IMG/VR virus record: IMGVR_UViG_3300047174_000068
Span: 1-27,981 of that record
Direction: 5' to 3' (one strand)
Length of the DNA stretch: 27,981 nt
From: a virus
The notes below the pieces were generated by a model. The model saw only the letters and a list, made by a program, of their open reading frames with translations, was not told where the DNA came from and did not search any database. Below are positions 8,973 through 27,981 of this stretch, piece after piece. A program made the translations under genes and the position numbers. The number at the start of each line of letters is the position of its first letter. Position 1 is the first letter of the stretch.

Positions 8973-9650
8973 TCATAGCACCAAAGGCACACCGCCCACA
9001 GTCAATGTTGTTCCGCCTACTGTAAGGACCGTGGATGTCGATCCGCCGGAGGGACGCCACGCGGGCAACCCCGACACTACCGTAAGAACTTCACCCTCAG
9101 ACCCGATCGACAATACGTTCCAGGCTGATGCTCCACGGTATAGCATCATACCCGACGCATCGCCGAAAACGTGATCGAGGATCGCCGACATTGTGTTGGC
9201 GGTGGGCTCTGCGGTGGCACCGGATATGTTGCTCACCACATCGCCGTCACCGATAACGGAAAACGTCCCTGGCGGACCTTCTGGCCCTGTCGGTCCCGCC
9301 GGACCTTCTGGACCTGTCGGTCCCGCCGGACCTTCTGGACCCGCCGGACCTTCTGGACCCGCCGGACCTTCTGGACCCGCCGGTCCCGCCGGCCCTCCTA
9401 CCGCGGTGCCCTGGCTGCTCTCGGCGGCCGGTTTGGTCACGATGCCGAACTGGATCAGATCGTTGAACGTGACTGCCCGGTCGGTTGCTTTGCCGGCCGC
9501 ACCGGTGAGACTGTCGAGCACAATTTTGGCGCGTGCGAGAGTTTGAACCAGGCCCGGCAACGACGCTGTCGGCTTTGGCACAGTCGGCGTGTTCGGGTTT
9601 GGCGCCGGTCCCACGGACGGCAGGACGAGGGTCACCGATGTGCTAGACAC
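8973..9650 (-). CDS. Collagen-repeat tail fibre protein
   Basis: 225 aa starting at GTG 9650; the start codon lies inside the end of the upstream gene (8-base overlap, GTGTCTAG), with GAAAG a few bases before it, so translation is coupled. Residues about 86-128 are 14 consecutive Gly-Pro-X collagen-like triplets (GPA, GPE, GPT). The N-terminal 85 residues would be the virion-anchoring part and the last 95 residues, Gly/Thr-rich, a small C-terminal domain. Collagen-like triplets are an established feature of trimeric phage fibres. The DNA beneath is a tandem array of about 18-bp units, which allows length change by slippage. Confidence 0.7.
9076..9086. repeat. Dispersed palindrome, degenerate half-site
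   Basis: CACTAC-C-GTA is intact but the right arm ends AAG; in the C-terminal codons of the collagen-repeat fibre gene. Confidence 0.3.
9267..9395 (-). repeat. Tandem repeats encoding collagen triplets
   Basis: About seven tandem, partly degenerate 18-bp units of the type GGACCTTCTGGACCCGCC (plus strand), giving 14 Gly-Pro-X triplets. Confidence 0.75.
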
Positions 9651-15908: not shown

Positions 15909-15922
15909 TGTCGTTACCTTTC

Positions 15923-26974: not shown

Positions 26975-27126
26975 GGGGATTTTTAGGGTTACGGTTGTGG
27001 AAAGTTAATGAAGTGTAATTTTTTTGGGGTATGTGAGGGGAGCAGCTAATCAAAATAAAAATACAGGGGGGGCTATGTCCAACACCCCGCCCCGGTGCCG
27101 TGGCCACCCATGTCCAAGTATCATTT

Positions 27127-27257: not shown

Positions 27258-27273
27258 ATGCGCGACAAGATGC

Positions 27274-27288
27274 GGGGCGTCACGCCCC
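27274..27288 (+). other. GC hairpin 5 nt before ribozyme
   Basis: GGGGCG (27274-27279), loop TCA, CGCCCC (27283-27288). No T-run follows, so it is not an intrinsic terminator in either direction. It ends 5 nt before hammerhead stem III and would protect the 3' end of the upstream cleavage product. Confidence 0.5.
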
Positions 27289-27293
27289 TGCCT

Positions 27294-27368
27294 GGGTCTA
27301 GGGCTTACGATCACAACCGTTGTGGTTTGTCAGCGCCCTACTGATGAGCCCCAACTAGGGCGAAACCC
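27294..27368 (+). ncRNA. Type III hammerhead ribozyme
   Basis: All conserved parts are present in order. Stem III 5' strand GGGT (27294-27297), cleavage triplet GTC with cut after C27298, stem I TAGGGC (27299-27304) pairing with GCCCTA (27335-27340), core CTGATGA (27341-27347), stem II GCCC (27348-27351) / GGGC (27358-27361) with six-base loop CAACTA, core GAAA (27362-27365), and stem III 3' strand ACCC (27365-27368), whose A pairs with T27297. The 10.1-11.1 pair is G-C as required. Stem I continues, after an internal loop, into an 8-bp helix made largely of a palindrome copy (27313-27323). Ends are in stem III, hence type III. Cleavage would give a 3' RNA starting at 27299 that carries the small gene at 27370. 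Identified from core motif and pairing only; activity not shown. Confidence 0.93.
27313..27323. promoter_or_regulatory. Dispersed palindrome inside hammerhead stem I
   Basis: ACAAC-C-GTTGT followed by GGTTT. In RNA it folds CACAA/TTGTG with a CCG loop and forms the outer helix of ribozyme stem I. Confidence 0.75.
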
Positions 27369-27369
27369 G

Positions 27370-27618
27370 ATGCCACATAGCAATGGTTTCCAAGAACCGG
27401 CGCCGGTTAAAATCAACGCGAAGTTTCTGCTCGCACCGCCGCCGCCCGACACCATTACGATACCGCCGGGTTTCATCATTACCAAATGCGCGGCTCGTAT
27501 CGCACACGGCGCGCGCAAGCCGCGATCGTATTGTCCTGGCGGTGCAACCGCCACAGGCGACGCAATCAATCGTGGCCAGCACTTCAAAGTTCGCAATCTC
27601 GCAGCTAAAGGATGGTAA
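27370..27618 (+). CDS. 82-aa protein downstream of hammerhead ribozyme
   Basis: ATG 27370 lies one base after stem III of the ribozyme; AGGG (27357-27360) at 9 nt is the only Shine-Dalgarno candidate and is part of ribozyme stem II. MPHSNGFQEPAPVKINAKFLLAPPPPDTITIPPGF... ending HFKVRNLAAKGW. Short, Pro/Ala-rich, with two Cys; no family recognised. First gene of the rightward group at the right edge, 4 bases before the next start. Early-gene status is inferred from its position opposite to the late operon. Confidence 0.55.
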   Translation: MPHSNGFQEPAPVKINAKFLLAPPPPDTITIPPGFIITKCAARIAHGARKPRSYCPGGATATGDAINRGQHFKVRNLAAKGW

Positions 27619-27622
27619 TATA

Positions 27623-27823
27623 ATGGCGTGCAAGGATGTAAATGATATGCGCGATAGTATTCGCGCTCTGTCGTTTGATTGTGCTCTTGATCGCCTGGAC
27701 TATAATCGGCGATTTATGCGTTCGCATACGCCCGCCGGAAGTAATTTTCACGCAGCACTTTGCGTGATCGTCGCTCTATACCGCGCGGAATTGTTCCGCC
27801 GGACCGGCTTCCGTCACTTCTGA
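27623..27823 (+). CDS. 66-aa small phage protein
   Basis: ATG 27623 with AAAGGA 10 nt upstream. MACKDVNDMRDSIRALSFDCALDRLDYNRRFMRSHTPAGSNFHAALCVIVALYRAELFRRTGFRHF, helical and rich in Arg and Asp; no family recognised. The open frame extends back to 27383 in another context, but the ribosome-binding site and the 4-base gap to the previous stop fix this start. Confidence 0.6.
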   Translation: MACKDVNDMRDSIRALSFDCALDRLDYNRRFMRSHTPAGSNFHAALCVIVALYRAELFRRTGFRHF

Positions 27824-27837
27824 AAGGACAACATACA

Positions 27838-27981
27838 ATGGCAACAGTTTCCACACAACGCGCCCTCGAAATAGGCGCGTTAATTCAATCGGCGGCGCTT
27901 CCCAGCGTGGGCGCGGCTGATGCCAAGGCCGAGGCGCGTCTTGTGCTCGAAGGCCGCGCCGAGGATGAACGTGGTATACGC
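27838..27981 (+). CDS. Hypothetical protein, cut by right edge
   Basis: Frame of 48 codons from ATG 27838 (AAGGA 10 nt upstream) to the window end without a stop: MATVSTQRALEIGALIQSAALPSVGAADAKAEARL... Ala/Glu-rich and helical. Third gene of the rightward group, 14 nt after the preceding stop. Too little is visible to assign a function. Confidence 0.55.
   Translation, partial: MATVSTQRALEIGALIQSAALPSVGAADAKAEARLVLEGRAEDERGIR

Follow-up and report, generated by a model that had tools for sequence, protein, structure and literature searches.

Positions 27293-27369 (plus strand) of the window, by which we mean the whole 27,981-base IMG/VR record IMGVR_UViG_3300047174_000068, form what is, judged from sequence and comparison, a genuine type III hammerhead ribozyme, for which self-cleavage is predicted. 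The motif, its conservation and synteny, and its adjacency to the AUG of a small gene, orf1, were established computationally. In the reading that we consider likely, the leader of the rightward early operon has this canonical hammerhead as its 3' end; the ribozyme is coupled to the orf1 ribosome-binding region and processes the leader during transcription. Most of the rightward early operon is absent from the window, because the record stops shortly past the hammerhead. The genome belongs to a podovirus-like tailed phage, with matches to the head-tail adaptor/portal, major head protein, internal virion protein and terminase families. The nearest isolates are Rhizobium phages, such as RHph_TM3_14A (62% identity in the major capsid protein and 41% in the terminase). 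This closest isolate carries neither hammerhead nor orf1, and a BLASTN search of the leader against phages and plasmids gave no match.

All parts of the ribozyme listed in the preliminary description (the GUC triplet, CUGAUGA, GAAA, stems I, II and III, the six-base loop and the U-G pair) were recovered base for base. Sequence and covariance-model alignment place the 5' strand of stem III, UGGGU, at 27293-27297, where position 27297 is U16.1, and its 3' strand, ACCCG, at 27365-27369; the stem has 5 bp, 27294-27297 pairing with 27365-27368 and U27293 forming a wobble pair with G27369. The cleavage triplet GUC (27296-27298) contains the UH required of a type III hammerhead, and the positions in both our own covariance model R1 and the Rfam model RF00008 identify C27298 as C17 (H17), with predicted self-cleavage on its 3' side. 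Stem I pairs UAGGGC (27299-27304) with GCCCUA (27335-27340) over 6 bp, and its distal part, 30 nt long (27305-27334), folds as an extended hairpin. The core CUGAUGA (27341-27347) is followed by stem II, GCCC-CAACUA-GGGC (27348-27361; 4 bp, 27348-27351/27358-27361), and by the core GAAA (27362-27365), in which A27365 is A15.1. Loops close stems I and II, and stem III opens toward the flanking sequence, which is the three-helix layout of type III. Loop II is CAACUA and loop I is extended; a tertiary contact between loops I and II is required for fast hammerhead cleavage at low Mg2+. Cleavage by ribozymes of the hammerhead family leaves a 3' product with a 5'-OH, and the predicted cut after C27298 would yield such a product beginning at U27299, the base that opens stem I. 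The fold of 27263-27405 also contains a hairpin, GGGGCG-UCA-CGCCCC (27274-27288), shortly 5' of the ribozyme.

The claim that chance does not explain this motif held up in two analyses. Dinucleotide-preserving shuffles of the whole window were scanned for CUGANGA and GAAA together with a UH triplet and with stems I/II/III no shorter than 6/4/4 bp, and an equally complete type III motif was present in only 1 of 7,257 shuffled windows; a looser motif with 4/3/4 bp stems occurred in 18 of them. Moreover, model R1, built from 42 phage type III hammerheads with the window left out, found exactly 27293-27369 as its sole match in the window (49.8 bits, E=7.1e-12), a test not wholly independent of close homologues, as the relative L001 is one of the 42 rows. 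The preliminary description had also regarded the lack of a covariance-model match above threshold as a ground for rejection, and here the Rfam result was divided. The type III family RF00008 (Hammerhead_3) was the best family on the 92-nt region 27285-27376, with 29.1 bits (E=6e-5); this is below its gathering threshold of 48.5, and nothing was found at gathering across the whole window, so that by the Rfam threshold the ground for rejection formally applies. At gathering, Rfam also missed six hammerheads of four relatives (L001, L011, L012 and L013) that score 43-69 bits with a dedicated model. Because these similar phage hammerheads are missed too, the threshold is insensitive here, and the score is a sensitivity limit rather than a structural failure. 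The same low score could be read as the sign of a chance or decayed hammerhead-like sequence, devoid of activity; such a reading is very improbable in view of the shuffles, the E-value of the dedicated model, and the covariation and intact core seen in the window, L001 and L012. Two other assignments were discarded: HH9, the best clan match of Rfam on 501 nt, gave way to type III on the tight region, and a type I fold formed through GAAACC/GGUUUC is without a stem I.

Comparison with related phages provided further evidence for the structure. L001, whose terminase is 72% identical over the aligned protein, was retrieved by terminase protein search alone and not by motif, and its type III hammerhead (9338-9390) occupies the syntenic position. 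L012 (terminase 60% identical) was retrieved by a pattern consisting of a hammerhead followed by ATG; it represents a homologous locus, as the first gene there is homologous to orf1, and the orf3 of L012 is 33% identical to that of L001 over 240 residues. In a terminase-profile search of viral contigs, a hammerhead was found among 80 terminase relatives only in the window, L001, L012 (the same as L167) and L150, although some of these loci are too short to reach the leader, and absence is not proven for every one. This absence from most terminase relatives speaks against the proposed leader processing. The hammerhead of L150 is degenerate (31.5 bits), with an additional U between CUGACGA and stem II. 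An alignment of the window, L001, L012 and L150 fitted to the model replaced a MAFFT alignment that had misaligned stem III. In these four rows, 98% of the pair cells hold standard pairs and 6 of the 14 pairs have changed on both sides, against 0-2 in slid controls; the family of four thus displays the helix covariation expected of a type III hammerhead. The pairing in L001 and L150 is informative because both were found by protein and not by motif. The near-perfect pairing counts of the 42-row alignment were not taken as proof, being partly circular, since those rows were chosen by pairing. The type III topology and cleavage site proposed earlier are thus backed both by the dedicated model and by syntenic hammerheads with compensatory changes.

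Six strict viral matches to GGGTC...CGAAACCC were also put through the pairing scans, and L007 alone passed as type III. L003, L005 and L006 represent a single repeated locus with type I pairing; L004 likewise passed only the type I scan, and L008 passed none.

Directly downstream of the hammerhead lies orf1 (27370-27618, plus strand; 82 aa), whose AUG begins on the base after the ribozyme, at a distance of 0 nt. It lies beyond a divergent intergenic region, and the gene order indicates that it would be the first ORF of its transcript. This gene context agrees with the leader position proposed originally and refines it, as the hammerhead ends one base 5' of the orf1 AUG. The operon continues with orf2 (27623-27823, plus strand; 66 aa), known as an open reading frame only, and with a partial orf3 (27838-27981, plus strand), which occupies the same position as orf3 of L001 and L012 and has weak similarity to them. 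For orf1 there was no match in Pfam or PHROG, and its structure prediction, with a pLDDT of 52, was uninformative. A profile search of the loci collected by then detected clear homologues only in the window, L001, L012 and L150; a later scan of the collection added L220 and L221. A small conserved ORF with R(K/R)VGGLRF lies close to the beginning of the early operon in L012, L170, L173, L174, L219 and RHph_TM3_14A (EVB41_027; L018 18202-18309), and was not seen in the window.

The hammerhead stands directly 5' of orf1 in the window, L001 and L012, at 0, 0 and 0-1 nt from the AUG, and a degenerate hammerhead lies about 24 nt 5' of orf1 in L150 and L221. In L001 and L012 this AUG is the first available start because an in-frame UAA precedes it, with four codons between the two; in the window the frame is open across the ribozyme, without an earlier ATG. 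In these three phages the interval between ribozyme and AUG is too small for a separate Shine-Dalgarno sequence. Sequence comparison suggests as the only candidate the AGGG at 27357-27360 (plus strand), in the loop and 3' strand of stem II and 9 nt 5' of the AUG; it is a weak Shine-Dalgarno sequence, and L001 and L012 have AAGGA at the matching position. L150, with its degenerate ribozyme, has a separate normal GGAG ahead of the orf1 AUG, and L220, which has orf1 and no hammerhead, likewise has an ordinary GGAG before the AUG. Relatives with neither the ribozyme nor a recognisable orf1 also have ordinary Shine-Dalgarno sequences. This natural comparison supports, and does not prove, that stem II may contribute the ribosome site. 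L150 contains copies of ACTACCGTAAT at 15910, 16256, 17117, 17826 and 18075, the first two immediately 5' of the Shine-Dalgarno sequence and ATG of rightward genes; the ATACSGGAGTAAC boxes of L012 and L173, which resemble them, include the Shine-Dalgarno sequence.

Prefix folding was used to follow the structure as the transcript lengthens. The native stems are present in the minimum-energy structure for transcript ends from about 27369 to 27385. Beyond this, GGUUUC (27385-27390, plus strand), complementary to GAAACC at 27362-27367, competes with the core and stem III, and once the transcript reaches 27392 the GAAACC/GGUUUC hairpin wins and stem III is lost from the minimum-energy fold; in the 27263-27405 context the margin is 2.5 kcal/mol. 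Cleavage would therefore need to be fast, and would be kinetically favoured during transcription. The competing hairpin encloses the AUG and is mutually exclusive with the ribozyme core; L012 has CGAAAC/GUUUCG at the corresponding place.

Stem I also carries a sequence element that recurs throughout the phage, as previously noted. The 13-bp palindrome CACTACSGTAGTG, with at most 2 mismatches, has 16 sites in the window against 0.31 expected (832, 5356, 7165, 8886, 11396, 14283, 15922, 16866, 17361, 20113, 22616, 23231, 25013, 26567, 26954 and 27312), and the last of these, CACAACCGTTGTGG, falls within distal stem I (about 27312-27325, plus strand). Four sites lie at distances of 11-20 nt from what appear to be the starts of leftward genes. 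The 11-bp core of the palindrome is enriched in L150 (22 copies against 1.65 expected) and L001 (11 against 0.81). The copies look like the operator set of a phage regulator. Stem I of L012 contains a related palindrome. In the L001 ribozyme, stem I is short and lacks a complete copy, which indicates that the palindrome is dispensable for the hammerhead motif.

The location of the candidate Shine-Dalgarno sequence within stem II, and of stem III next to the AUG, raises the alternative of a switch, in which the uncut hammerhead would hide the Shine-Dalgarno sequence and spacer, and cleavage, tuned by GAAACC/GGUUUC or by a palindrome-binding phage protein, would license orf1 translation. The competing hairpin and the stem I palindromes, each found in both the window and L012, fit this alternative. 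However, secondary-structure modelling did not reveal unmasking of the Shine-Dalgarno sequence by cleavage (unpaired 0.17-0.20 before and 0.22 after), and the pairing of the AUG changed little. Because these pairings barely change, a strict on/off switch of translation is unsupported by folding alone. Moreover, a GUUUC competitor is weak as a general feature (5 of 49 hammerheads against 1.7 expected), and the palindrome is chiefly a genome-wide DNA motif that is incomplete in the L001 ribozyme. We therefore regard a switch as unlikely.

The association with gene starts extends beyond this family. A gene-blind pattern gave 115 viral stretches, 80 of them listed, and 35 distinct hammerheads passed the pairing scan. 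Among the matches listed, an ORF of 50 or more codons with an ATG start lies no more than 60 nt downstream of 32 of these 35 phage type III hammerheads (23% for random sites on the same contigs); for 23 of the 35 the distance is at most 30 nt (random sites, 14%). A slightly stricter gene-blind pattern returned 11 stretches in 84,980 bacterial and archaeal genomes. An AUG that abuts the ribozyme (within 3 nt) is present in several phages that appear to be unrelated, namely L011, the L013 group, the L029 group and L017. L011 has three type III hammerheads on the minus strand (11748-11696, 11277-11225 and 9783-9731), each 0-2 nt before an ATG, and the middle one is followed by a 230-codon ORF.

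These observations also bear on a further possibility, that the purpose of the hammerhead is to liberate the 5' leader as a structured small RNA in its own right, any effect on orf1 being incidental. The 200-300 nt 5' of the ribozyme are partly conserved between the window and L001, which fits this possibility; one example is the GC-rich block CTATGTCCARCACCCC, at about 27074-27096 in the window and about 9022-9047 in L001. However, the ribozyme is linked to orf1 and its AUG, and less to the leader, and type III hammerheads stand at ORF starts across unrelated phages. Release of a small RNA thus appears to be a distinctly improbable main function.

The abutting cases suggest a broader hypothesis, namely that the hammerhead is fused to the ribosome-binding site, with stem II as Shine-Dalgarno sequence and the AUG abutting stem III, so that one RNA domain would both make the 5' end of the mRNA and set its translation, and that this arrangement recurs in several apparently unrelated phage lineages. 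These lineages would be the window with L001 and L012, L011 with its three copies, the L013 and L029 groups, and L017. AGG or GGA was found in the 3' region of stem II in all 11 genuine abutting cases and in 26 of 41 others (Fisher p=0.014), a comparison uncorrected for relatedness and partly shaped by the search patterns used to collect the hammerheads. We put this hypothesis forward tentatively, as possible and somewhat short of probable.

For the window, the ribozyme is likely to trim the orf1 mRNA and to shape its 5' end, a role suggested because the ribozyme-gene pair persists in two diverged relatives and, in degenerate form, in a third. With the polymerase at about 27369-27385, the ribozyme would fold and cut after C27298, and the upstream leader would be shed. 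The body of the mRNA would then carry a 5'-OH and open directly into stem I, a blunt hairpin starting at the first base; next would come stem II, with the sole Shine-Dalgarno-like stretch on its 3' strand, 9 nt from the AUG. Cleavage would also release the stem III strand ACCCG, which lies between this stretch and the start codon. In bacteria, 5'-terminal hairpins are thought to slow mRNA decay, and the likely benefit would be a 5' end that is uniform, decay-resistant and translatable, as a naturally occurring equivalent of the engineered RiboJ leader. We infer cleavage in vivo, stabilization of the mRNA and use of stem II as ribosome site.

Hammerheads are already known in phages. The window shares with RF00008 type III members (sTRSV, phage and bacterial members) the topology, the CUGAUGA...GAAA core, the G-U-C triplet and the three stems; unlike them, its stem I is lengthened by a 30-nt hairpin with the phage palindrome, and its 3' end is flush with a start codon. 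In the haloviruses HF1 and HF2, an early polycistronic transcript carries a hammerhead 13 nt 5' of its first ORF, and the 5' end of this transcript was mapped to a point no more than 3 nt from the cleavage site (PMC3088659). The ribozyme of the window is similarly located shortly 5' of what gene order suggests to be the first ORF of an early transcript, and with 0 nt to the AUG at 27370 it falls within the distance of at most about 15 nt that characterizes this kind of arrangement. However, HF1 and HF2 are archaeal viruses with a 13-nt gap and a helicase gene (PMC3088659), whereas the window has no gap, a small uncharacterised protein and a Shine-Dalgarno-like stretch in stem II. RiboJ, an engineered sTRSV type III hammerhead with a hairpin, increases mRNA levels about twofold and protein levels 2-10 fold (PMC6206723). 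As in RiboJ, a hammerhead stands between promoter and gene, and the predicted cut would leave a uniform 5' end bearing a hairpin; in RiboJ, however, a separate hairpin and RBS follow, whereas the phage version is natural and has its candidate RBS in its own stem II. In the open-access literature, with subscription papers mostly outside its reach, we found no description of a hammerhead flush with a start codon or of a Shine-Dalgarno sequence in stem II. The ribozyme belongs to a known class; what may be new is the flush-AUG arrangement.

What hammerheads do in bacteria and phages has been called an open question (PMC6155905). Our results tie phage type III hammerheads to gene starts, and in one family the ribozyme and its gene have remained paired in diverged phages, while those relatives that lack an intact ribozyme have ordinary Shine-Dalgarno sequences instead. 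This family and its Shine-Dalgarno-bearing relatives therefore make the function directly testable with simple reporters. If the proposed role is true, phages naturally use what synthetic biology introduced as the RiboJ leader.
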